Shown here: piece after piece, positions 49,969 to 63,998 of the stretch
How the letters are laid out: each line of letters begins with the position of its first letter
Numbering within the stretch: position 1 is the stretch's first letter
Source: Crossiella equi
GTDB lineage: Bacteria > Actinomycetota > Actinomycetes > Mycobacteriales > Pseudonocardiaceae
DNA length: 64,000 nt
Reading direction: 5' to 3'
Assembly: GCF_017876755.1 (NCBI RefSeq)
Contig: NZ_JAGIOO010000001.1
Span: forward strand, 1,798,001-1,862,000
The notes under the pieces: model-generated
What the model was told of the DNA's origin: nothing
Databases searched by the model: none
Seen by the model: the letters and a program-made list of their open reading frames with translations, nothing else
Made by a program: the position numbers and the translations under genes

Positions 49969-51348
49969 TCAGCCGAGGTCGTTGACGGCCTCGGAGATGG
50001 CCCGGTGGAAGGTCGGGTAGGCGCCGATGAACTGGCGCAACACCGACAGCGGGATCCGCGCGTGCACGGCCATGGCCAGCGCGCCCAGGATCTCGCCACC
50101 GGCCGGGCCCATCGCGGTCGCACCGACCAGGACCTCGGCGTCAGCGTCCAGGACCAGCTTGACCAGGCCGCGGTTGCCGACCTTGTGCACGAAGCCGCGC
50201 GAGGAGTTCTCCAACCGGGTCAGGCCGGTGCGGATGTTCAGCCCGGCCTCCCGGGCCTGCTTCTCGGTCAGCCCGACCGAGCCCAGCTCCGGGTTGGTGA
50301 AGGTGACGCGCGGGATCGCGTGGTACTGGGCGGCCGGGCCGTCCTGGCCCAGCAGCTCCCGGATCACGATGTCGCCCTGGTACATGGACATGTGGGTGAA
50401 CTGGCCGTGGCCCACCGCGTCGCCGACCGCCCAGACGCCGTCGGTGACCTTGAGGCGGTCGTCGGTGGGCAGCGCCCGGGCCGCCTCGTCCACTCCCAGC
50501 ACCCCCACGCCCAGCTCGGCCAGGTTCGCGCGGCGGCCGGTGGCCACCAGCAGGTGGGTGCCGGTGACCGTCTCGCCGTCGGACAGACGCACCTGGAACT
50601 CGCCGTCCTCGTGGGCCACCGCGTCCGCGCTCACGCCTGTGCGCACCGCGATGCCCTCGTCGGCGAAGATCTCGGTCAGCAGGGCCGCGGCCTCCGGCTC
50701 GTCCAGGCCCGCGATGTGCGGCTGGTGCTCGACCACCGTCACGTCGGCGCCGAAGCGGGCGAAGACCTGCGCGAACTCCAGGCCGATCGCGCCGCCGCCC
50801 AGCACCACCAGGGTGTCCGGCACGACCTCGGTGGCCACCGCCTCGCGGTTGGTCCAGTACGGCGTGCCCGCCAGGCCCTGGATCGGCGGGACCGCGGGCT
50901 CGGTGCCCGGGTTGAGCACGATGCCCTTCTCCGCCCGCACCTCGCGCTCGCGGCCGTCCTCGTCGGTCACCGTGACCACACCCGGCGCGGTGATGCGGCC
51001 GGTGCCGCGCAGGAAGCCCGCGCCCGCGTCGACCAGGCGGCGGACCGCGACCGTGTCGTCCCAGTTGTCGGTGGCCTCCCGGCGGATCCGCTCGGCCACC
51101 GCCGAGAAGTCCGGCAGCACCGTGGCCGTGCCCGCCAGCTCCGGCACCCGCCGGGCCTCGGCCACCACCTCGGCCGCGCGCACCATCATCTTGGTCGGGA
51201 TGCAGCCGTAGTACGGGCACTCCCCGCCCACCAGCCTGCGCTCCACGCCCAGTACGCTCAGCCCCGCCTTGGCCAGGCCGGTCGCGACGTGCTCGCCACC
51301 GGGGCCCAGACCGATCACCACGACGTCGACGACTTCCTGGCCGGACAT
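49969..51348 (-). CDS. Pyridine nucleotide-disulfide oxidoreductase (Lpd/MerA-like)
   Basis: 459 aa. FAD site VVVIGLGPGGEHVATGLA, redox-active disulfide C44-x4-C49 in GGECPYYGCIPTK, NAD(P) site LGGGAIGLEFAQVFARFG and the second FAD motif WAVGDAVGHG, all in the order of dihydrolipoamide dehydrogenase. The dimer-interface His-Pro-Thr near the C-terminus is replaced (IGAYPTFHRAISE), so a standard lipoamide reaction is doubtful; reductases of other disulfides or quinones are more likely. Convergent with the kinase gene, 6 bp apart. Confidence 0.85.
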   Translation of the reverse strand: MSGQEVVDVVVIGLGPGGEHVATGLAKAGLSVLGVERRLVGGECPYYGCIPTKMMVRAAEVVAEARRVPELAGTATVLPDFSAVAERIRREATDNWDDTVAVRRLVDAGAGFLRGTGRITAPGVVTVTDEDGREREVRAEKGIVLNPGTEPAVPPIQGLAGTPYWTNREAVATEVVPDTLVVLGGGAIGLEFAQVFARFGADVTVVEHQPHIAGLDEPEAAALLTEIFADEGIAVRTGVSADAVAHEDGEFQVRLSDGETVTGTHLLVATGRRANLAELGVGVLGVDEAARALPTDDRLKVTDGVWAVGDAVGHGQFTHMSMYQGDIVIRELLGQDGPAAQYHAIPRVTFTNPELGSVGLTEKQAREAGLNIRTGLTRLENSSRGFVHKVGNRGLVKLVLDADAEVLVGATAMGPAGGEILGALAMAVHARIPLSVLRQFIGAYPTFHRAISEAVNDLG

Positions 51349-52195: not shown

Positions 52196-55100
52196 ATGAC
52201 CGCGCAGTCGGACCGGCGTGCGCTCGTCCTCGGGGTAACCCCCTTCGGCGAGGCCAACGCCCGTCTCGTCGCCGCGGTCCGCCACGCAGGCGGACTCGGA
52301 GTTCTCGACCTCGGCACCGGCGCCCGGTCGACCAGGGAAGCACTTGACCTCGCCCAGCGCTGGGCGTCCGGACCATTCGGGGTGCGCGTGCCGGCCGGCT
52401 GCGCGCTGACCCCCGCCGACCTCCCCGCCGCGGTTGACACGGTCGTGCTCGCCGCGGACAGCTCTTGGCAACTCGCTGACATCGCCGACCGCTTCCAGGT
52501 CCTGGTGGAGATCACCTCGGTGGCCGCCGCCCAGGCCGCGGCCCAGGCCGGTGCGGCCGGGCTGATCGCCCGCGGCAACGAGGCGGGCGGGCTCGTCGGC
52601 GAGCTGTCCTCCTTCGTGCTCCTGCAGAAGCTGATGGCCACGCCGGGCCTGGACCTGCCGGTATGGGTCGCGGGCGGTATCGGCGTGCACACCGCGGCCG
52701 CCGCGGTCCTCGGCGGGGCCGCCGGTGTCGTGCTGGACACCCAGCTCGCACTGTTGGAGGAGTCCGAGCTGCCCGAGGCCACCGCGGCACTGCTGCGCAC
52801 GCTGGACGGCTCGGAGAACGCGATCGTCGACGGCCGCCGGGTGCTCACCCGCAAGGGCCGGAACCCGGTCCCGCCGCTGGAGCTCGGCCAGGACGCCTTC
52901 CTCGCCGCCCGGTTCGCCGAGAAATACCGGACCACCGGTCGAGTGATCCGCGCTATCACCGATGCGGTGACAACCGCGCTCACGCAGCGCGACCTCACCG
53001 ACGTCCTCAAGCCCGGCTCGAACTTCGCCACCGCGGTCGGCGTGCCGCTGCCGGTCGCACAGGGCCCGATGACCCGCGTGTCCGACCAGGCCGCCTTCGC
53101 CGCCGAGGTCGCCACCGGCGGCGGCCTGCCGTTCATCGCCCTGGCCCTGGCGGCCAAGGAGCAGACCCGGCGCATGATGACCGAGACCGCCGCCGCCCTG
53201 GGCGAGCGCCCGTGGGGCGTGGGCGTGCTCGGGTTCGCGCCGGAGGATGTGCGCGCCGCGCAGCTGGAGGTCATCCGCGAGCTGCGCCCGACCCACGCCA
53301 TCATCGCGGGCGGCCGCCCCTCGCAGGCCGCCGCGCTGGAGGAGGTCGGCATCACGACCTTCCTGCACGTGCCCTCCCCCGGCCTGCTCAAGCAGTTCGT
53401 CGAGGCGGGCGCGCGCCGGTTCATCTTCGAGGGCAGCGAGTGCGGCGGCCACGTCGGTCCGCGCGCCAGCTTCGCCCTCTGGGAAGCGCAGATCTCGGTC
53501 CTGCTGGACCACCTCGGCAACAAGAGCGGGGCCGACTTCCAGGTCATCTTCGCGGGTGGTGTGCACGACGGGCGCTCCTCGGCCATGGTCGCCGCGATGG
53601 CCGCCCCGCTGGCCGCCAAGGGCGTCGGCATCGGCGTGCTCATGGGCACCGCCTACCTGTTCACCCAGGAGGCCGTCTCCGCGGGCGCCGTGCAGCCGCT
53701 GTTCCAGCAGCAGGTCCTCGCCGCCGAGGGCACCGAGCTGCTGGAGACCGCACCCGGCCACGCCACGCGCTGTGTGACCAGCCCGTTCGCCCGGAACTTC
53801 CAGGAGATCAAGGCCGAGCTGACGGCCAAGGGCGTGCCGGACCGCGAGATCTGGGAGCACCTGGAGAGCCTCAACGTCGGCCGTCTGCGCATCGCCTCCA
53901 AGGGCGTCAAGCGCGAGGGCGACCAGCTCCTCGGCGCCGACGAGGCCGAGCAGCTCGCCGACGGCCTGTTCATGGCCGGACAGGTCGCCGTGCTGCGCGA
54001 CGCCGTCACCACCGTCGCCGACCTGCACGAGTCCGTCACCGGCGGCGCCGCCGTGTACCTGACCGACCGCCGCGAGCAGCTGGCCGGGCGCTTCGGGCTC
54101 ACCGCGCCCGCGCGCACCGAACCGGTCGCGCCGCCGCCGCTGGACGTGGCCATCGTCGGCATGGCCTGCATGTTCCCCGACGCCCCCGACCTGGCCACGT
54201 TCTGGGCCAACATCGTGGCGGGCAGGGACTCGGTCACCGAGGTGCCCGCCGAGCGCTGGGACGCCGAGACCTACTACTCCCCGGACGCCACCGGCAAGAA
54301 CATCAACGACCGCACCCCCTCGCGCTGGGGCGGGTTCCTGCCGCGCATCCCGTTCGACCCGCTCAGCTACGGCATCCCGCCCGCCTCGCTGGCCAGCATC
54401 GAGCCCGTGCAGCTGCTGGCCCTGGAAGCGGCCCGGCAGGCCCTGCGCGATGCCGGGTACGACGGCGACCGCGAGTTCGACCGGGCCCGCGCCTCCGTGG
54501 TCTTCGGCGCCGAGGCGGGCAGCGACCTGTCCAACGCCACCACCCTGCGCGCGGTGCTCCCGGCCTACCTGGCCAACCTGCCGCGGGAGCTGCTGGACCA
54601 GCTGCCGCCGCTGACCGAGGACTCCTTCCCCGGCATGCTGGCCAACGTCATCTCCGGCCGCATCGCCAACCGCCTCGACCTCGGTGGTGCCAACTTCACC
54701 GTCGACGCCGCCTGCGCCTCCTCCCTGGCCGCCCTGGACGTGGCGTGCAAGGAGCTGGTCAACGGCACCAGCGACCTCGTGCTCTGCGGCGGTGCCGACC
54801 TGCACAACGGCATCAACGACTACCTGCTCTTCGCCTCGGTGCACGCCCTGTCGGCCACCGGCCGCAGCCGCACCTTCGACTCCACCGCCGACGGCATCGC
54901 CCTCGGCGAGGGTGTCGCCTGTGTCGCGCTCAAGCGCCTGGCCGACGCCCAGCGCGACGGCGACAAGATCTACGCGGTGGTCAAGGGCCTCGGCTCGGCC
55001 TCCGACGGCAAGTCCCTGGGCCTGACCGCGCCCCGTCCGGAGGGCCAGCGCGCCGCCCTGGACCGCGCCTACGCCAACGCCCGCATCTCCCCGGCCGAGG

Positions 55101-58100
55101 TCGGCCTGGTGGAGGCACACGGCACCGGCACCGTCGTCGGCGACCGCACCGAGCTCACCACGCTCACCAAGATGTTCGTCGAGGCCGGGGCCCAGCCCGG
55201 CACCTGCGCCATCGGCTCGGTGAAGTCCCAGATCGGCCACACCAAGTGCGCCGCCGGTCTGGCCGGTCTGATCAAGGCCGCGATGGCTTTGCACACCGGG
55301 GTCAAGCCGCCCACGCTGCACGTCGAGGCGCCGAACGCGGCCTGGGAGAAGGACTCCAGCCCGTTCGTTTTCCACGCCGCGGCCCGGCCGTGGGCCGCCG
55401 AGCCGAGCCAGCGCGTGGCCGGGGTCTCCGCCTTCGGCTTCGGCGGCACCAACTTCCACACCGTGCTCGCCGCCGTCGAGGCCCCCGCGCCCCGGCACAG
55501 CGTCGCGGCCTGGCCCGCGGAGCTGTTCACCTTCCGCGGCGCCGACCTGCGCGGGGCCACCAAGTCCATCCAGCAGCTGCTGGAGCTGGCCGCCGCCAAC
55601 GACACCGGCGGCCGTCCGTACCGGCTGCGCGACCTGGCCCGCACCACCGCCCGCAAGGCCGACGCCCGCACCGAGCCGGTGCAGGTGGCCATCGTCGCGG
55701 ACAGCCTGGACGGCCTCGTCGACCGCCTGCGCCGCGCCGTGGCCGGGGAGCACGACCCCGCCGGGGGTGTGTACCTGGCGGGCCACGACTCCCTCGGCGG
55801 CGAGACCGGCAAGCTCGCCCTGCTCTTCCCGGGCCAGGGCAGCCAGCGCACCGGCATGCTCGCCGAGCTGTTCGTGGCCTTCCCCGAGGTCCAGCACCTG
55901 CTCCAGCGCGGCGCCAAGTGGGCCGACCTGCTGTTCCCGCCCGCCGCCTTCGACACCGCGGTGGCCAAGGACAACGAGGCCCGCCTGCGCGACACCCGCG
56001 TGGCCCAGCCCGCGCTCGGCATCGCCGGACTGGCCGTGCACCAGCTGCTCGACCGGCTCGGCGTGCGCGCCGACCTCCTCGCGGGGCACAGCTACGGCGA
56101 GCTCGTCGCGCTGGCCGCGGCCGGGGCCCTGGACGCGGGCACGCTGCTGGAGATCTCCGAGCAGCGCGCGCTGTCCATCCTGGCCGCCGCCGACGCCGCC
56201 GGAGGCGACCCCGGCACCATGGCCGCGGTGTCCGGGCAGGCCGAGCGGATCACCGAGGTGCTGGCCGAGGCGGGCCTGGCCGGTGAGGTCGTGCTGGCCA
56301 ACCACAACTCGCCCAAGCAGGTCGTCATCTCCGGTTCCACCGACGGCATCGCCAAGGCGGTGCCCGCGCTCAAGGCGGCCGGGCTCAGCGCCAAGCCGAT
56401 CCCGGTGGCCTGCGCCTTCCACAGCCCGATCGTGGCCGCGGGCGGCGACCGGTTCGCCGAGGTGCTGGCCGCGGTGGACGTGCACGCGCCGGAGATCCCG
56501 GTCTACGCCAACCGCACCGCCGCCCGCTACGGCACCGACGTGCGGGCCGAGCTGGCCGCGCAGATCGGCTCCCCGGTGCGCTTCGTCGAGCAGGTCGAGG
56601 CCATGTACGCCGACGGCGCCCGCGTCTTCGTCGAGGCCGGGCCCGGCAAGGTGCTCTCCGGCCTGGTCAAGGCCATCCTCGGGGATCGGCCACACGTCAC
56701 GGTCACCGTCGAGCCCAGCGCGGACAGCGGGCTGCGCGGTTTCCTCGGCGCCCTGGCCACCCTCGCCGTGACCGGCGTGCCGATCTCCACCGGCTGGCTG
56801 TTCGCGGGCCGCGACACCCGCGAGGCCACCACCACCCTGCCCAAGCGCGCGGGCTGGACCATCGACGGCCACGTCGTGCGCACCGCCGACGGCGCCTACC
56901 TCACCGGCGGCCTCGCCCCCGCCCGCCGCGTCCACCTGGAGACGACCACCATGAGCAGCCCTCAGCAGCAGCCCGCCGGGCAGCACGACGCCCTGGTCGC
57001 GGAGTTCCTGCGCACCAGCCGGGAGATCCTGGCCGCCCAGCGGGACGTCATGCTCAGCTACTTCGGCACCCAGCCGGGGGTGGCGGCGCCGCAGGTCGTC
57101 CAGTACGCCCCGGCGCCGCAGGCGATCCCGGCCGTGGTCACCGCCCCGGCCCCCGTGGTCACCGCTCCGGCCCCGGCCCCGGTCGCGGCCCCCGCGCCCG
57201 CCCCGGCTCCGTCCACTGTGGACGTCCTGGGCACCGTGCTCAGCATCATCAGCGAGCGCACCGGCTACCCGATCGACATGATCGAGCCCGACCTGGACCT
57301 GGAAGCCGACCTGTCCATCGACTCCATCAAGCGCACCGAGATCGCCGGAGAGCTGGCCACCAAGCTCGGCGGCGGGCTGGACGCGGCCAGCCTGGGCGAC
57401 GCCGAGCTGGAGGAGCTGGCCAAGGCCCGCACCGCCGCCGCGATCTCCGCCTGGCTGGGCGCCAAGGTCGGCTCCTCACCCGCCGCCGCCCCCGTGGCGG
57501 CCCCGGTCACGGCCAGCGGCCCCAGCGAGGCGGAGCTGCTCACCACGGTGCTGACCATCATCAGCGACCGGACCGGCTACCCGATCGACATGATCGAGCC
57601 CGACCTGGACCTGGAAGCCGACCTGTCCATCGACTCCATCAAGCGCACCGAGATCGCCGGGGAGCTGGCGACCTCGCTGGGCGGGGCCCTGGACGCGGCC
57701 AGCCTGGGCGACGCCGAGCTGGAAGAGCTGGCCAAGGCCCGCACCGCGGCCACCATCGCCAGCTGGCTCGCCGCGAAGTCGGGGGCGGCCCCCACCCTGG
57801 CCACCGCCGCCGCCCCGGCCCTCGCCGCCGCCCCGGTCGCGGTCCCCGTGGCCGCCCCGGCCGTCGAGGCCCCGCTGACCCAGTCCGCGCAGACCGGCTT
57901 CGGCATCGCGCCCAAGCGGTTCGTGCTGACCCCGGTCGACGTCTCGGCCGCCGCGTCGGCCAGCCCGAGCACCCTGGCGGGCACCCGGTTCGTCCTCTTC
58001 GGCTCCACCGGCGCCTCGGAACTGTCCGAGCTGCTACTGGCCAACGGCGCCCAGGCCCGCACCGAGGCCCTGGCCCGGCCGCTGACCGAGGCCGACGGCC

Positions 58101-59344
58101 AGGTCGACGGCGTGGTCTTCCTCGACGCCCTCGGCGACGGTGACCTGCCGGTGCTGCCCGAGACCTTCCCGGCCTTCCAGTCCGCGCTGGTGCGGGGCGT
58201 CCGGTGGCTGCTCGCCGCCGCGCCCAGCCAGCTCGGCCGGGCCGCCGGTCTGCGCGGCCTGTTCCGCACCATCGGCCGCGAGTACCCCGACACCCACGCC
58301 AGCCTGGTCGAGACCGGCGGCACCCCCGCCGCCGACCTGCTGGCCGAGCTGCTCGCCACCGACCGGCACCCCGTGGTGCTGCGCCGCGACGGCGGCCGGC
58401 ACGCCCTGGACATGGTGCCCACCCCGCTCGGCGCGCTCGGCCTGGGCGCGGGCCCGGCCGGGGACGGCTCCACCGAGGCGAACGCCATCGGCCTGGACCG
58501 CGACTCGGTGGTCCTGCTCGTCGGCGGCGCCCGCGGCATCACCGCCCAGTTCGCCGCCACCCTGGCCGGGGCCAGCGGCTGCCGGATCGAGCTGGTCGGC
58601 CGCACCGCCGTGGCCACCGAGGAGGAGGATCCGGCGCTGGCCGGGGCCAAGGACAAGACCGCGCTGCGCGCCGCGCTGATCGCGGCGGGCCTGCGCAACC
58701 CGGCCGAGATCGAGCGCACCGCCAGCCGCCTGCTGGCCCAGCGCGAGGTCCGCGCCACCCTGGACGAGCTCGAAGGCCTCGGCAGCCAGGCCCGCTACCA
58801 CTCGGTGGACGTCCGCGACCACGACGCCCTGCGCGGCCTGGTCAAGGAGATCCACGCCGAGCACGGCCGCATCGACGGTGTGGTCTACGCGGCGGGCGTG
58901 ATCGAGGACAAGCTGCTGGCGGAGAAGGACCTCGAGTCCTTCCGCCGGGTCTTCGGCACCAAGGTCGACGGCGCCCGCGCCCTGCTGGAGGCCGTGTCCG
59001 ACCTCGGCGAGACCGGCCCGCGCTTCGCGGTGCTCTTCGGCAGCATCGCCGCCGCCCTGGGCAACCGCGGCCAGGTCGACTACGCCGCCGCCAACGACGC
59101 CCTGGAGTCCCTGGGCATCAGCTGGTCGGAGCAGACCGGCGGCCGCGGCCTGACCGTCCACTGGGGACCGTGGGCCCCCTCGGCCAAGCACGGCGGCATG
59201 GTCACGCCCGAGCTGATGCAGTCCTACACCCGCCGCGGCATCGAGCTGATCGACCCCGAGGAAGGCACCCTGGCCCTGCTCCGCGAGCTGGCCTGGGGCG
59301 GGGACGCGGTCCGGTCGGTCGTCTACTCCGCATCGGGCTGGTGA
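52196..59344 (+). CDS. Iterative PKS/PUFA-like synthase A: ER(PfaD-like)-KS-AT-ACP-ACP-KR
   Basis: 2382 aa; ACGGAGG 5 nt before ATG. Residues 1-640 are nitronate-monooxygenase/PfaD-type FMN barrel sequence: a divergent first half (WVAGGIGVHTAAAAVLGG), then a full one (GVPLPVAQGPMTRVSDQ, FIFEGSECGGHVGPR, VIFAGGVHDGRSS). KS (about 649-1091): active Cys840 in VDAACASSLAA, His in EAHGTGT and IGHTKCAAG. AT (about 1207-1530): LLFPGQGSQ and Ser1299 in GHSYGEL. After an Ala/Pro linker come two nearly identical ACPs with phosphopantetheine sites Ser1710 and Ser1814 in DLSIDSIKRTEI, 104 residues apart. KR (about 2100-2300): LVGGARGITAQFA and VLFGSIAAALGNRGQVDYA. The domains and DSIKR-type ACPs place it with PUFA/secondary-lipid synthases. 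It probably extends and ketoreduces an acyl chain iteratively and may reduce it with the fused ER. Confidence 0.9.
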   Translation: MTAQSDRRALVLGVTPFGEANARLVAAVRHAGGLGVLDLGTGARSTREALDLAQRWASGPFGVRVPAGCALTPADLPAAVDTVVLAADSSWQLADIADRFQVLVEITSVAAAQAAAQAGAAGLIARGNEAGGLVGELSSFVLLQKLMATPGLDLPVWVAGGIGVHTAAAAVLGGAAGVVLDTQLALLEESELPEATAALLRTLDGSENAIVDGRRVLTRKGRNPVPPLELGQDAFLAARFAEKYRTTGRVIRAITDAVTTALTQRDLTDVLKPGSNFATAVGVPLPVAQGPMTRVSDQAAFAAEVATGGGLPFIALALAAKEQTRRMMTETAAALGERPWGVGVLGFAPEDVRAAQLEVIRELRPTHAIIAGGRPSQAAALEEVGITTFLHVPSPGLLKQFVEAGARRFIFEGSECGGHVGPRASFALWEAQISVLLDHLGNKSGADFQVIFAGGVHDGRSSAMVAAMAAPLAAKGVGIGVLMGTAYLFTQEAVSAGAVQPLFQQQVLAAEGTELLETAPGHATRCVTSPFARNFQEIKAELTAKGVPDREIWEHLESLNVGRLRIASKGVKREGDQLLGADEAEQLADGLFMAGQVAVLRDAVTTVADLHESVTGGAAVYLTDRREQLAGRFGLTAPARTEPVAPPPLDVAIVGMACMFPDAPDLATFWANIVAGRDSVTEVPAERWDAETYYSPDATGKNINDRTPSRWGGFLPRIPFDPLSYGIPPASLASIEPVQLLALEAARQALRDAGYDGDREFDRARASVVFGAEAGSDLSNATTLRAVLPAYLANLPRELLDQLPPLTEDSFPGMLANVISGRIANRLDLGGANFTVDAACASSLAALDVACKELVNGTSDLVLCGGADLHNGINDYLLFASVHALSATGRSRTFDSTADGIALGEGVACVALKRLADAQRDGDKIYAVVKGLGSASDGKSLGLTAPRPEGQRAALDRAYANARISPAEVGLVEAHGTGTVVGDRTELTTLTKMFVEAGAQPGTCAIGSVKSQIGHTKCAAGLAGLIKAAMALHTGVKPPTLHVEAPNAAWEKDSSPFVFHAAARPWAAEPSQRVAGVSAFGFGGTNFHTVLAAVEAPAPRHSVAAWPAELFTFRGADLRGATKSIQQLLELAAANDTGGRPYRLRDLARTTARKADARTEPVQVAIVADSLDGLVDRLRRAVAGEHDPAGGVYLAGHDSLGGETGKLALLFPGQGSQRTGMLAELFVAFPEVQHLLQRGAKWADLLFPPAAFDTAVAKDNEARLRDTRVAQPALGIAGLAVHQLLDRLGVRADLLAGHSYGELVALAAAGALDAGTLLEISEQRALSILAAADAAGGDPGTMAAVSGQAERITEVLAEAGLAGEVVLANHNSPKQVVISGSTDGIAKAVPALKAAGLSAKPIPVACAFHSPIVAAGGDRFAEVLAAVDVHAPEIPVYANRTAARYGTDVRAELAAQIGSPVRFVEQVEAMYADGARVFVEAGPGKVLSGLVKAILGDRPHVTVTVEPSADSGLRGFLGALATLAVTGVPISTGWLFAGRDTREATTTLPKRAGWTIDGHVVRTADGAYLTGGLAPARRVHLETTTMSSPQQQPAGQHDALVAEFLRTSREILAAQRDVMLSYFGTQPGVAAPQVVQYAPAPQAIPAVVTAPAPVVTAPAPAPVAAPAPAPAPSTVDVLGTVLSIISERTGYPIDMIEPDLDLEADLSIDSIKRTEIAGELATKLGGGLDAASLGDAELEELAKARTAAAISAWLGAKVGSSPAAAPVAAPVTASGPSEAELLTTVLTIISDRTGYPIDMIEPDLDLEADLSIDSIKRTEIAGELATSLGGALDAASLGDAELEELAKARTAATIASWLAAKSGAAPTLATAAAPALAAAPVAVPVAAPAVEAPLTQSAQTGFGIAPKRFVLTPVDVSAAASASPSTLAGTRFVLFGSTGASELSELLLANGAQARTEALARPLTEADGQVDGVVFLDALGDGDLPVLPETFPAFQSALVRGVRWLLAAAPSQLGRAAGLRGLFRTIGREYPDTHASLVETGGTPAADLLAELLATDRHPVVLRRDGGRHALDMVPTPLGALGLGAGPAGDGSTEANAIGLDRDSVVLLVGGARGITAQFAATLAGASGCRIELVGRTAVATEEEDPALAGAKDKTALRAALIAAGLRNPAEIERTASRLLAQREVRATLDELEGLGSQARYHSVDVRDHDALRGLVKEIHAEHGRIDGVVYAAGVIEDKLLAEKDLESFRRVFGTKVDGARALLEAVSDLGETGPRFAVLFGSIAAALGNRGQVDYAAANDALESLGISWSEQTGGRGLTVHWGPWAPSAKHGGMVTPELMQSYTRRGIELIDPEEGTLALLRELAWGGDAVRSVVYSASGW

Positions 59345-62300
59345 GCATGATCCAGTCAACTCCGGTCGCCATCGTCGGGATGGCCGTGCTGCTCCCCGGC
59401 GCTGGCGACCTGGAGTCCTACTGGCACAACCTGGTCAACGGGGTCGACTCGATCACCGATGTCCCGGCAGACCGGTGGGACCCCGACTTCTACCACCCCG
59501 GCTCGGCCGAGGGCCCGGCCCAGGCGGACCAGGTCTACTGCCGCCGCGGCGGGTTCGTGGACGCCTCGTTCGACCCGGTGGGCTTCGGTGTCATGCCGAA
59601 CTCGGTCGCCGGGACCGAACCGGACCAGCTGATCGCCCTGCGCGTGGCGGCCGCGGCCATCCACGACGCGGGCGGCGCCGAGCACCTGCCCGCCCGCGAC
59701 CGCGTCGGCGTGGTGCTGGGCCGCGGCGGCTACCTCACCCCCGGCCTGGTGCGGCTGGACCAGCGGGTGCGCACCGCGCACCAGCTCACCCGCACCCTCG
59801 GCGACCTGCTCCCCGAGCTGGGCGCCGAGCAGCTGGCCAAGGTCCGGCAGGCCTTCACCGACCAGCTCGGCCCCAACGCCCCGGAGAACGCGATCGGGCT
59901 GGTGCCGAACCTGGCCGCCTCCCGCATCGCCAACCGCCTGGACCTGCGCGGCCCCGCCTACACCGTGGACGCCGCGTGCGCCTCCTCGCTGGTCGCGGTC
60001 GACCAGGCGGTCACCGAGCTGGCCGCGGGCCGCTGCGACGTGATGCTCGCCGGTGGGGTGCACCACTGCCACGACGTCACCTTCTGGAGCGTGTTCTCCC
60101 AGCTCCGCGCCCTGTCCAAGGACCAGCAGATCCGGCCCTTCGACCGGCGCGCGGACGGCATCCTCATCGGCGAGGGCACCGGCGTCGTGGTGCTCAAGCG
60201 CCTGGCGGACGCCCAGCGCGACGGCGACCGGGTGTACGCGGTCATCCGCGGCACCGGCGTGGCCTCCGACGGCCGCAGCGCCAGCCTGTTCAACCCCGAG
60301 CCGGACGGCCAGGTCCTCGCCGTCCAGCGCGCCTGGGCGGCCGCCGGGCTCGACCCAGCCGCCCCCGGCTCGGTCGGCCTGCTGGAGGCCCACGGCACCG
60401 CGACGCAGGCGGGCGACACCGCCGAGCTGTCCACCATCTCGCGGGTCTTCGGCACCGACGGCCCGAGCGCGGTGATCGGCTCGGTCAAGTCGATGATCGG
60501 CCACACCATGCCCGCCGCGGGCGTGGCCAGCCTGGTCAAGGCCGCCCTGGCCCTGCACCGGCAGGTGCTGCTGCCCACGCTGCACTGCGAGCAGCCGCAC
60601 GCCGCCCTGGCGCAGACCCGGTTCCGGCCCATCGACTCCGCGCAGCCGTGGGAGCTGGCGCAGGGCCAGGAGGTGCGCCGCGCCGCGGTCAACGCCTTCG
60701 GCTTCGGCGGCATCAACGCCCACGTCGTGCTGGAGGAGGCCCCCAGCGCCCCGCGGCGGCCCGTGGTCCAGGTCAGCGAGCCGGAGAAGGTGCTGACGCT
60801 GTCCGCGCCGACCCCGGAGCGGCTGGCCGAGCTGCTGGACCGGCCGGACACCGAGATCGAGTCGACCGAATCCACTGTGGACGGTGTCCGGCTCGGGCTC
60901 GTCGCGCCCACGGCCAAGCGCCTGGGCATCGCGCGCAAGGTCGTGGCCAAGAACGTGGCCTGGCGCGGCCGCAACGACGTCTGGTACTCCCCCGCGCCGA
61001 TGCTGCGCGAGGGCGGCTCGGTCGCCTTCGTCTTCCCCGGACTGGAAGCCGAGTTCGAGCCCCGCGTGGACGACGTGGCCGCCCACTTCGGCCTGTCCGT
61101 GCCCGGCCTTTCCACCGGCAACATCGGCTCGCACGGCAAGGGCGTCGTCGGCGTCGGCCGGTTGCTGGACACCGTGCTGCGGCAGCTGGGCGTCCAGCCC
61201 GACCACATCGCCGGGCACAGCGTCGGCGAGTGGACCGCGATGATCACCAGCGGCATCTACGACCAGGCCCAGGTGGACGCGTTCCTCACCGACTTCGACC
61301 CCGACTCGCTGCGCGTGCCGGGTGTGGTCTTCGCCGCCTTCGGCTGCGGCGCGGACCGGGTCACCGAGGTCATGGCGGGCCGTCCGGGCGTGGTCCTGTC
61401 CCACGACAACGCGCCCAACCAGTCCATCGTCTGCGGCCTGGAACCCGTGGTCGACGCGCTGGTGCTGGAACTGCGCGCGAAGAACGTGCTCGGCCAGGTG
61501 CTGCCGTTCCGCTCCGGCTTCCACACCCCGATGCTCGCGCCCTACCTGGACCCGATCCGCGAGGCCGCGCAGAACTTCCGCCTGCACCAGCCCGCGGTCC
61601 CGATGTGGTCGGCCACCACCGCCTCCCCGTACCCGGCCGCCGAGCAGGAGGTGCGCGAGCTGTTCGTGCGCCACCTCCTCGAACCGGTGCGGTTCCGGCC
61701 GCTCGTGCGGAACATGCACGCCGCGGGGGTCCGGGCGTTCGTGCAGGTCGGCACCGGCGCGCTGGGCACCCTGATCAGCGACTCGCTCGCCGGGCAGGAC
61801 CACCTGGCCATCTCGGCCAACTCGCCGAAGCAGAGCGGCATGGCCCAGTTGCGGCGCGTGCTCACCGCCCTGTGGGCCGAGGGCGCGCCCACCCACCCCG
61901 ACCGCCTCAACCCGGCCGCGACCAGGCAGTCGGCGAAGCCCAAGGTCAGGGCCGGAAAAGAGCTGCCGCTGGACCTCTCGGCGCGCACGATCCGCCTGGC
62001 CGAGGACGTCTCGGGTGCTATCAAGGCTTCGATAAACGCAGCTGTCCCCCAGGCCCAGTCGACCAAGCTGGGAAGCCCGCAGGTGAGCGGGCTCGGCGAC
62101 GCCTTCGCCGAGCTGAACCGGCTCGCCGCGCGGTTCCCGCTTGCCGCTGAGCTTGGAGGACTCTTGAAGGACACCGCCGACACCGCAGCCACGGTTCTCG
62201 GGGCGGCCGGAAACGGCACCCTCACCACCGCCCCCGCGCCCGCCCCGGCGGGACCGCTGAGCACCGTGCTGCGGATGTCCACCGAGACCATGCCGTACCT

Positions 62301-63651
62301 GCGGGACCACTGCTTCTACCGCACCCCGTCGGACTGGCCGGATGACACCGACCGCTTCCCGGTGGTGCCCGCGACCACGATGATCACGCACATGGTGGAG
62401 GCCGCCGAACAGGCCGCCCCCGGTCAGCGCGCGATCGCCGTGCACAACGTGAAGCTGCTCCGCTGGCTCGTGGTCGCCCCGCCGGTCGACGTCGAGGTCA
62501 CCGTGACCCCGCTGGCCCCCAACCGGGTCAAGGTCACCCTCGGCCAGAACGCCGAGTCCGAGGTCGAGCTCGCCCCGGCCTACCCCACCGACACCCCGCC
62601 GGTGTGGACCTTCACCGACGCCGAGCAGGCACCGCGCATCACCGCCAAGCAGCTCTACGACGAGCGGTTCATGTTCCACGGCCCGCTCTACCAGGGCGTC
62701 ACCGCGCTCGACGCGATCGGCGAGAAGCACATCCGGGGTGTGATCACCATCCCCGGCGGGCCCGGCGCGCTGCTGGACAACGTCGGCCAGGTCTTCGGCT
62801 ACTGGATCATGGAGAACGAGACCGAGAAGCGCGTGGTCTTCCCCGTCTCCATGGACCGCATCCGCTTCTTCGGCGCCGAGCCCGAGGCCGGTACCCCGCT
62901 GGAGTGCCTGGTCCGCATCACGCAGCTGACCGACCAGTTCTTCGCCGGTGAGATGCAGCTGGTGCACGAGGGCCGCGTGTGGTGCGAGATCGACGCGTGG
63001 ACCGACCGCCGCTTCGCCAGCAACGAGAACACCAAGATGATGGAGCGCTTCCCCGAGCACAACCGGCTCTCCGAGCGGCGGGACGCGGGCTTCTTCGTGG
63101 TGTGGGAGCGCTGGCCGGACGTCGCCTCCCGCGACCTGATGATGCGCAACTACCTCAACGCGGCCGAGCGCGCCGTCTACGACACCACCTCCCCGCGCAC
63201 GCGGCGGCAGTGGCTGCTCGGCCGGATGGCCGTCAAGGACGCGGTGCGCCAGCACCTCTGGGACGACGGGGCGGGCCCCATGTTCCCGGTGGAGCTGACC
63301 GTGACCGGTGAGGCGGAGGTGACCGGCCGCAACCCGCTGCCGCCGCTGACCGTCTCCACCGCGCAGGAAGGCCGGGTCGGCGTCGCGATCACCCGCGGCG
63401 GCGAGCGCCCGGTGGGCATCGACGTGCGCAAGGTCGAGGAGGCCGCGGGCACCACGGCCTTCACCGCGGCCCTGGCCGCCGCCGCCCGCGCGCACGGTGG
63501 CGAGCCCGAGCAGTACGAGGTGGTCGGCGCGGAGGGCGAAGTGCTCACCGTGCGCGGGGCCACCGGCAGCACCCCGGTGACGTGGACCGTCATCACCGAC
63601 CCTGACGGTGAGATCGCAGGCGAGTACGTCGTCGCCTGGACCAACGAATGA
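59341..63651 (+). CDS. Iterative PKS/PUFA-like synthase B: KS-AT-DH-PPTase-like
   Basis: 1436 aa. GTG 59341 overlaps the stop of gene A by 4 bp, so translation is coupled; ATG 59347 is an alternative. KS (about residues 5-470): Cys213 in VDAACASSLVA, EAHGTATQAGD, MIGHTMPAAG. AT (about 560-860): AFVFPGLEAEF and Ser627 in GHSVGEW. A linker of about 100 residues holds no ACP motif. DH hot-dog domain (about 975-1220): His990 in YLRDHCFYRTP, then MFHGPLYQGV. The C-terminus (about 1270-1436) resembles the phosphopantetheinyl transferase of enediyne and PUFA synthases: RQWLLGRMAVKDAVRQHL and RPVGIDVRKVEE, but the usual SxSH motif reads VSTAQEG. B must use the ACPs of A or of the next gene. Confidence 0.88.
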   Translation: MSMIQSTPVAIVGMAVLLPGAGDLESYWHNLVNGVDSITDVPADRWDPDFYHPGSAEGPAQADQVYCRRGGFVDASFDPVGFGVMPNSVAGTEPDQLIALRVAAAAIHDAGGAEHLPARDRVGVVLGRGGYLTPGLVRLDQRVRTAHQLTRTLGDLLPELGAEQLAKVRQAFTDQLGPNAPENAIGLVPNLAASRIANRLDLRGPAYTVDAACASSLVAVDQAVTELAAGRCDVMLAGGVHHCHDVTFWSVFSQLRALSKDQQIRPFDRRADGILIGEGTGVVVLKRLADAQRDGDRVYAVIRGTGVASDGRSASLFNPEPDGQVLAVQRAWAAAGLDPAAPGSVGLLEAHGTATQAGDTAELSTISRVFGTDGPSAVIGSVKSMIGHTMPAAGVASLVKAALALHRQVLLPTLHCEQPHAALAQTRFRPIDSAQPWELAQGQEVRRAAVNAFGFGGINAHVVLEEAPSAPRRPVVQVSEPEKVLTLSAPTPERLAELLDRPDTEIESTESTVDGVRLGLVAPTAKRLGIARKVVAKNVAWRGRNDVWYSPAPMLREGGSVAFVFPGLEAEFEPRVDDVAAHFGLSVPGLSTGNIGSHGKGVVGVGRLLDTVLRQLGVQPDHIAGHSVGEWTAMITSGIYDQAQVDAFLTDFDPDSLRVPGVVFAAFGCGADRVTEVMAGRPGVVLSHDNAPNQSIVCGLEPVVDALVLELRAKNVLGQVLPFRSGFHTPMLAPYLDPIREAAQNFRLHQPAVPMWSATTASPYPAAEQEVRELFVRHLLEPVRFRPLVRNMHAAGVRAFVQVGTGALGTLISDSLAGQDHLAISANSPKQSGMAQLRRVLTALWAEGAPTHPDRLNPAATRQSAKPKVRAGKELPLDLSARTIRLAEDVSGAIKASINAAVPQAQSTKLGSPQVSGLGDAFAELNRLAARFPLAAELGGLLKDTADTAATVLGAAGNGTLTTAPAPAPAGPLSTVLRMSTETMPYLRDHCFYRTPSDWPDDTDRFPVVPATTMITHMVEAAEQAAPGQRAIAVHNVKLLRWLVVAPPVDVEVTVTPLAPNRVKVTLGQNAESEVELAPAYPTDTPPVWTFTDAEQAPRITAKQLYDERFMFHGPLYQGVTALDAIGEKHIRGVITIPGGPGALLDNVGQVFGYWIMENETEKRVVFPVSMDRIRFFGAEPEAGTPLECLVRITQLTDQFFAGEMQLVHEGRVWCEIDAWTDRRFASNENTKMMERFPEHNRLSERRDAGFFVVWERWPDVASRDLMMRNYLNAAERAVYDTTSPRTRRQWLLGRMAVKDAVRQHLWDDGAGPMFPVELTVTGEAEVTGRNPLPPLTVSTAQEGRVGVAITRGGERPVGIDVRKVEEAAGTTAFTAALAAAARAHGGEPEQYEVVGAEGEVLTVRGATGSTPVTWTVITDPDGEIAGEYVVAWTNE

Positions 63652-63662
63652 GGAGAATCTAG

Positions 63663-63998
63663 ATGGAGCTCGCGGAAGCGCCCCTGACGCTGGTCCGGAC
63701 CTCCCCGGAGGCCGTGCTGTCCGACCTCACCGTCATGCTGCACAAGGTCCTGGGCGAGTACGGCATGTCCACCGAGGGAGATGACGCAGTCGAGGTCACC
63801 ATGGACTCGACCTTCCACGACGACCTGGAGCTGGAGAGCATCGACCTGGTGGCGCTGGCCGGTCAGCTGGAGGAGCGGTACGGCTCGCGCGTCAACTTCG
63901 CCGAGTTCATCGCCGACCTGGAGCTCGACCAGATCATCGCGCTCACCGTCGGCCAGCTCGTCGACTACGTCGTGTCCGCTCTCGACGGGGAGAACTGA
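63663..63998 (+). CDS. Acyl carrier protein
   Basis: 111 aa. AGGAG overlaps the end of the PKS B gene and precedes ATG 63663, so it is in the same operon. A single PP-binding domain; the phosphopantetheine Ser is in DDLELESIDLVALAGQLEE (about residue 60). It has about 25 extra N-terminal residues compared with a minimal ACP. It may be a loading, shuttle or release carrier for the two PKS proteins. The operon continues past the window. Confidence 0.9.
   Translation: MELAEAPLTLVRTSPEAVLSDLTVMLHKVLGEYGMSTEGDDAVEVTMDSTFHDDLELESIDLVALAGQLEERYGSRVNFAEFIADLELDQIIALTVGQLVDYVVSALDGEN

Follow-up and report, generated by a model that had tools for sequence, protein, structure and literature searches.

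A candidate Type M lipid synthase operon with a predicted tandem-barrel enoyl reductase region and a putative sugar-capping gene in Crossiella equi

The host genome of Crossiella equi (GCF_017876755.1) is a single contig of 9.44 Mb, and the window, i.e., the whole 64,000-nt stretch of DNA that was analyzed, corresponds to its bases 1798001-1862000. Two large proteins, here termed A and B, are encoded one after the other at its downstream end and are followed by a free ACP (Table 1), whose serine is kept in 34/34 relatives. The domain order that a first-pass annotation had read in A, ER(PfaD-like)-KS-AT-ACP-ACP-KR, is borne out by Pfam, which recognizes NMO (two stretches), KS, AT, PP-binding (two stretches) and KR. 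For B, Pfam returns KS, AT and PKS_DH_N, the last one slightly under its cut-off (E=6e-6, 26.5 bits vs. 27). The coupling of the two genes, noticed in the same annotation, is seen as adjacency or as a stop/start overlap at 59341-59347: an alternative GTG start of B at 59341 would yield a protein of 1436 aa, its GTGA overlapping the stop codon of A. Between 52196 and 67831, six genes run in the same direction with intergenic gaps or overlaps of 11 bases or less (starts partly from the gene caller), and A, B, the ACP, an alpha/beta hydrolase, a glycosyltransferase and a methyltransferase therefore most likely form one operon. A flavoprotein disulfide reductase (lipoamide dehydrogenase/MerA-like; 49969-51348, - strand) lies divergent from A, and all four loci of the genus with which the window was compared have it there too. 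Past the window, two further methyltransferases, both from the family to which that of the operon belongs, are found on the + strand (70863-72683 and 72744-73736), and four to five such matches stand in a row after the glycosyltransferase at three other loci (L196, L200, L204).

Table 1. Genes and predicted domains of the locus, in window positions
Feature	Position	Strand	Details and basis
Protein A (pseudo-ER, ER, KS, AT, ACP, ACP, KR)	52196..59344	+	ATG to TGA, one open frame, 2382 aa
Degenerate N-terminal TIM barrel of A, FabK/NMO-like	52217..52960	+	Residues about 8-255; profile and sequence matches
PfaD-like enoyl reductase of A	53018..54055	+	Residues about 275-620, SECGGHVGPR, His419; NMO and FabK families
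KS of A	54137..55471	+	Cys840/His975/His1015; all three in 86/86 complete A proteins
AT of A	55808..56695	+	GHSYGE and AFH motifs; Ser and His 86/86
Two tandem ACP domains of A	57209..57745	+	Ser1710, Ser1814; Pfam, alignment
KR region of A	57908..59341	+	PF08659 at residues 2105-2327
Protein B (KS, AT, DH, eroded PPTase)	59347..63651	+	ATG, 1434 aa
KS of B	59356..60756	+	Cys/His/His present; kept 61/61 where the domain exists
AT of B	61024..61806	+	GHSVGE; Ser and His 65/65 complete B proteins
PKS-type dehydratase (DH) of B	62269..63051	+	His988 and Asp1144; both 65/65
Eroded PPTase domain of B	63064..63648	+	Conserved YVVAWT end; alignment with relatives
Free ACP	63663..63998	+	111 aa, Ser59; PP-binding E=1.4e-6
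Alpha/beta hydrolase	64000-64803	+	Beyond window edge; start from gene caller
Macrolide-family glycosyltransferase	64800-65981	+	NCBIfam MGT E=3e-51, 175 bits vs. cut-off 260; start from gene caller
Methyltransferase	65978-67831	+	617 aa; beyond window edge; start from gene caller

Residue conservation was counted on complete proteins. The A set was reduced from 101 to 86 by dropping sequences that were cut by the locus end, shorter than 1900 aa or broken (L090, L114, L115), and the B set from 87 to 65 by dropping 17 that were cut by the locus end together with the broken L077, L090, L114, L115 and L127; both sets include the window protein, and L059 and L042, being the same stretch, are counted twice. 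Within A, the AT is presumably of the malonyl type, as judged by a motif rule, and the Tyr, Asn and Ser of the KR are each present in 82/86 proteins, the rest showing mostly gaps. The number of ACP domains varies across the family, with mostly one or two. As the tested residues of ER, KR and DH are kept, the partly reduced chain that had been proposed as the product is plausible.

The N-terminal reductase region of A is more complex than the single ER domain first described. While the PfaD-like ER itself was recovered, with a histidine at the His419 position in 86/86 complete A proteins, a degenerate FabK-like barrel precedes it. This first barrel matches FabK 7l00 at E=5.7e-13 (phmmer against structure sequences) and aligns with the ER half with an hhalign score of 70 (E=2e-9), as against 16 for a reversed profile and a maximum of 23 among 20 shuffled ones. 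In the window protein its catalytic His is replaced by Leu133 and GGIG is retained. The same pattern extends through the complete A proteins, in which the site matching the catalytic His of the ER holds His in 2/86, another residue in 82/86 and a gap in 2/86, and in which the three checked glycines of GGIG are kept in 84 to 86 of 86. By these profile matches, the “ER” of A is predicted to consist of two tandem TIM barrels, a FabK-like one without the catalytic His and then the PfaD-like ER. The near absence of the His indicates that its loss is old and that the barrel has been retained. In the available part of PMC13311796, PfaD and FabK dimers are structurally resolved, and two thraustochytrid ER domains (ERb/ERc) are described as forming a heterodimer, one of them being unstable alone. 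By analogy, the dead first barrel is probably an in-chain dimer partner of the live ER. In both cases a single system contains two ER domains of the TIM-barrel type; in the thraustochytrid case, as far as that part of the source goes, these belong to two proteins and both carry the catalytic His, whereas in the window they form one chain and the first is without it.

Protein B combines well-kept catalytic domains with two parts that have been lost repeatedly. Its KS is missing from 7/84 tree rows, in 4 separate changes, which indicates that this domain is dispensable. The C-terminal tail, first annotated as PPTase-like, aligns with the Sfp-type PPTases of its relatives, and PF01648 matches all six of the relatives' KEA-bearing tails that were tested (E 2e-19 to 4e-13); on this alignment, the tail of B is assigned to PPTase descent. 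That part of the initial reading stands, but the window's tail gives no ACPS/PF01648 match in Pfam, is not recognized as a PPTase against PDB sequences either, carries no KEA motif and reads GIDVR in place of the relatives' GID-hydrophobic-E; the Asp and a GRxAxKDAVR stretch are retained. The PPTase activity of this copy has thus probably been lost. Erosion was scored by the presence of the KEA motif alone across the 65 complete B proteins, of which 44 keep it and 21, the window's included, have lost it; the losers include all six rows of the window's genus and the three named Kutzneria. An initial count of 28/65 eroded tails was dropped because the pattern was too strict for the second motif, which is altered in some of the 44 KEA-bearing tails (e.g., GIALE, GIDII). 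On the tree of A, KEA loss requires 7 changes, at least 5 of which are forced by well-supported branches. A YVVAWT-like C-terminal end is kept in 17/21 KEA-less and 43/44 KEA-bearing tails. At the P1b' motif, which the available part of PMC3098273 gives as hShxH rather than FNxSH for Type M PPTases, 53/65 B proteins hold the His, typically as VSLAH, and the window copy has Gln. An eroded domain in B implies that the ACPs would be armed by a PPTase encoded elsewhere, and two PF01648 genes are found elsewhere in the window's genome. Both the PPTase motif and the KS of B have been lost repeatedly, which marks them as dispensable parts of the machinery.

The architecture is widely shared. The order barrel-ER-KS-AT was found in 80/80 named loci, which is more than chance; these are the best 80 of at least 570 confirmed stretches, where one stretch does not equal one separate locus and PfaD-like kin may be among them. 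On this basis, the class is common in actinomycetes. The closest named relative among the matches listed is Crossiella sp. S99.2, with 87% identity over the ER region, and four searched genomes belong to the window's genus. The ER region was matched in 19/60 relatives and in 8/246 genomes sampled from the phylum as a whole (both counts include the genome of the window), and those 8 phylum matches span both barrels in frames of at least 2387 codons. Two rearranged loci argue for A and B working together in a single complex: in L185, both lie in a single 3,365-codon open frame without the KS of B, and in the divergent relative L188 (3915-15640) the DH is placed in A's frame after the KR, the second protein being KS-AT-ACP.

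Among described systems, the closest fit is with the Type M synthases. In the available part of Shulse & Allen 2011 (PMC3098273), Type M is listed for Actinosynnema mirum, three Frankia, Renibacterium salmoninarum and Streptomyces avermitilis, and its product is given as uncharacterized. According to the accessible sections of PMC13291983, two Flavobacteriales have pfaDA and pfaBC fusions with a PPTase domain, an arrangement that closely resembles the R. salmoninarum cluster. The locus shares with Type M, as described there, the actinobacterial host, the pfaD homologue fused to pfaA (in A) and, by descent, the pfaBC homologue with a PPTase domain (in B), except that the window copy has lost the PPTase motifs and is catalytically eroded. 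It is also orthologous to a locus (L055) in a genome taken for A. mirum (G024; contig 8,248,144 bp), where L055 is the only strong PfaA-like locus among 18 scored of 134 first-look candidates. Owing to this match in the text and to the sole strong locus of the presumed A. mirum, the locus is filed under Type M, a fit that draws on text descriptions and one presumed A. mirum genome. The distinct class initially proposed is consequently given up in favor of an ordinary member of a known, uncharacterized class; the initial picture of a split, iterative synthase of the PUFA-like kind, with a PfaD-like ER at the N-terminus of A and a PPTase-descended domain at the C-terminus of B, nevertheless holds. 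The notable features are the tandem pseudo-ER and a swap of head-group genes. The covered parts of PMC3098273 and PMC13291983 mention neither the tandem barrel nor the conserved head-group genes. In the parts of the open-access literature that were covered, no mention was found of the tandem barrel, the head-group swap or the PPTase losses, and no product for any Type M member.

The hydrolase follows the synthase in 55/56 loci (window included), the exception (L057) being broken off inside A; it also matches the Thioesterase family (9e-7), and its catalytic Ser and His are kept in 31/32 and 32/32 relatives, respectively. At the guessed site of the catalytic acid conservation is absent, with Asp in 8/32. 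Head-group genes were counted on the same strand and within 7 kb of the hydrolase at 55 loci, again including the window: a glycosyltransferase is found in 49, a sulfotransferase (PF13469, 9e-16 in L140) in five, both in none and neither in one (L188). On the KS tree, this swap requires one change over 55 rows (51 and 4). The methyltransferase is near 26/55 loci, always together with the glycosyltransferase and at 0/5 sulfotransferase loci, and maps to 26/51 rows with 8 changes. A search for the glycosyltransferase in 20 named genomes gave 15 close matches (E 4e-110 or better) within about 1.2 kb of the locus end, the contig being confirmed by overlapping sequence in 12 and by coordinates alone in L103, L089 and L124. 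The remaining five genomes, all Micromonosporaceae, gave distant glycosyltransferase matches only, and in four of them a sulfotransferase was seen. An MsbA-type exporter is near 6/55 loci, at 350 bits or more. The sulfotransferase loci also contain a family of about 560 aa (L139 2996-4690, L140 4533-6107, L142 3302-4987, and L048), for which the single member scanned, that of L140, gave no Pfam or NCBIfam match.

The relationship to PUFA synthases was addressed with a KS tree of 64 rows, built by a quick search with SH-aLRT support only and carrying a long-branch warning among the outgroups. Its PfaA-like rows were drawn from 11 of 30 loci plus five others, giving 16 rows of which 12 are distinct; seven of ten modular loci (same genome) were taken, and L192, in which A is cut, was left out. 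The 20 A-type KS, window included, form one group (support 93) that is sister (85) to the PfaA-like rows, and the 18 B-type KS form a clade of their own (99), apart from two PfaC-like, seven modular and one PKSE-like KS. With the canonical PfaABCDE system the locus hence shares this sister relationship, a PfaD-like ER and tandem ACPs; unlike that system, it has the ER fused to A, no CLF was seen, and the KS of B is not grouped with the two PfaC-like KS. One could accordingly regard the locus as a PUFA synthase for membrane phospholipids next to which the sugar gene is a mere neighbor, and the position of A's KS, as well as the 938.9 bits that A scores with the PfaA model, speak for this. That score is nevertheless under the cut-off of 1010.1, and the KS-CLF and the two FabA-like dehydratases of PfaC were not seen in B, where Pfam gives one KS, the AT and one PKS-type DH. 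Moreover, a glycosyltransferase or a sulfotransferase stands at 54/55 loci, which is too regular for a chance neighbor, and the phospholipid reading is thus considered unlikely.

In enediyne PKSEs, a DH and then a PPTase form the C-terminus of the chain. B ends in the same way, and it had been suggested that B looks like an enediyne/PUFA-type enzyme that has lost ACP-KR. If B derived from a PKSE, the product would be the core of a polyene or polyyne. A PKSE-like synthase of 1934 aa is in fact encoded in the genome taken for A. mirum (L253, 4684-10488, - strand); it adjoins a 4HBT_2 thioesterase and a flavin reductase and perhaps belongs to an enediyne cluster. Nevertheless, an enediyne origin of B is supported neither by the KS tree, in which the B clade excludes the PKSE-like row and the KS of A goes with PfaA-like sequences (weak evidence as regards PKSE, since this is a single reference on a long branch), nor by the profiles of the B domains, with no match of B_DH to the PKSE-like protein at E 1e-4 and 17 bits only for B_PPT. 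Besides, PKSEs are single chains with a gene cassette of their own, whereas the locus has, by Pfam, two chains and an ER in place of KS-AT-ACP-KR-DH-PPTase in one chain. Reading downstream gave the hydrolase, the glycosyltransferase and the methyltransferase, and among the ten neighbors scanned in the immediate surroundings there is no enediyne-type gene, including a hotdog (4HBT) thioesterase. An ER fused to A would also be at odds with a polyene core, and we regard an enediyne-like polyene synthase as improbable. It might also be argued that the cluster is decaying and no longer works, since its first barrel is dead and its PPTase motif is gone, as it is from 20 others of the 65 complete B proteins. 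This is highly improbable: the other tested catalytic residues are kept, both A and B are uninterrupted frames in four more genomes of the genus, and the barrel has outlasted an old loss of its His.

The reading that we consider fairly probable is that of a Type M secondary lipid synthase in which A and B act as one complex and the chain is released, capped with a sugar and probably methylated. With catalytic functions assigned from motifs, the AT of A would load malonyl units, its KS would condense them iteratively on the ACPs of A, and the KR would reduce the ketone. The DH of B would then remove water, and the PfaD-like ER of A, probably paired with the dead N-terminal barrel as one half of a FabK/PfaD-type dimer, would reduce the double bond in every round or in only some of them. 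The finished chain, with at least one hydroxyl, would exit via the AT of B, the free ACP and/or the downstream alpha/beta hydrolase, whereupon the glycosyltransferase would add a sugar to a hydroxyl and the methyltransferase would probably methylate the product. In this scheme, we infer the chain length, the number of reductions, the release route, the sugar and the methylation site, as well as the barrel pairing and the PPTase loss. The product would most likely be a long-chain lipid that is hydroxylated, bears a sugar and is probably methylated as well. The need of a lipid with a free hydroxyl would account for one chain-building machine with exchangeable polar caps, although the macrolide-type glycosyltransferase could act on another substrate. 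The conserved hydrolase and the swap between glycosyltransferase and sulfotransferase lead to a testable prediction, namely that a sugar or a sulfate forms the head of a lipid alcohol or of a hydroxy acid.

Compared by description only, heterocyst glycolipid synthase (hgl, Type F) is likewise PUFA-like and makes a chain that ends up in a glycolipid, and the available part of PMC3098273 describes it as encoded by separate genes and without DH/I domains. Tentatively, Type M might be a system, widespread among actinomycetes, that makes capped lipids of the envelope, an actinobacterial counterpart of heterocyst glycolipid synthesis. One acyl machine would be combined with exchangeable enzymes for the head group (sugar, methylated or not, or sulfate), and its ER would work as a pseudo-heterodimer whose dead and live barrels lie in the same chain; the Frankia with two copies would then offer candidates for unidentified vesicle-envelope genes. 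Five Frankia vesicle-envelope mutants have been described, among which no mutation of the hopanoid operon was found and one carries a mutation in NAD+ synthase, the genes of the others being unidentified (PMC12501873). In the available part of PMC8951365, no member was matched and two entries named pks were left unplaced, and the link to Frankia vesicle envelopes is put forward as a conjecture. Two copies of the operon per genome were observed in two genomes taken for Frankia, in Streptomyces olivoreticuli and in two genomes of the window's family (locus pairs L191/L192, L202/L203, L106/L153, L043/L045 and L046/L050).
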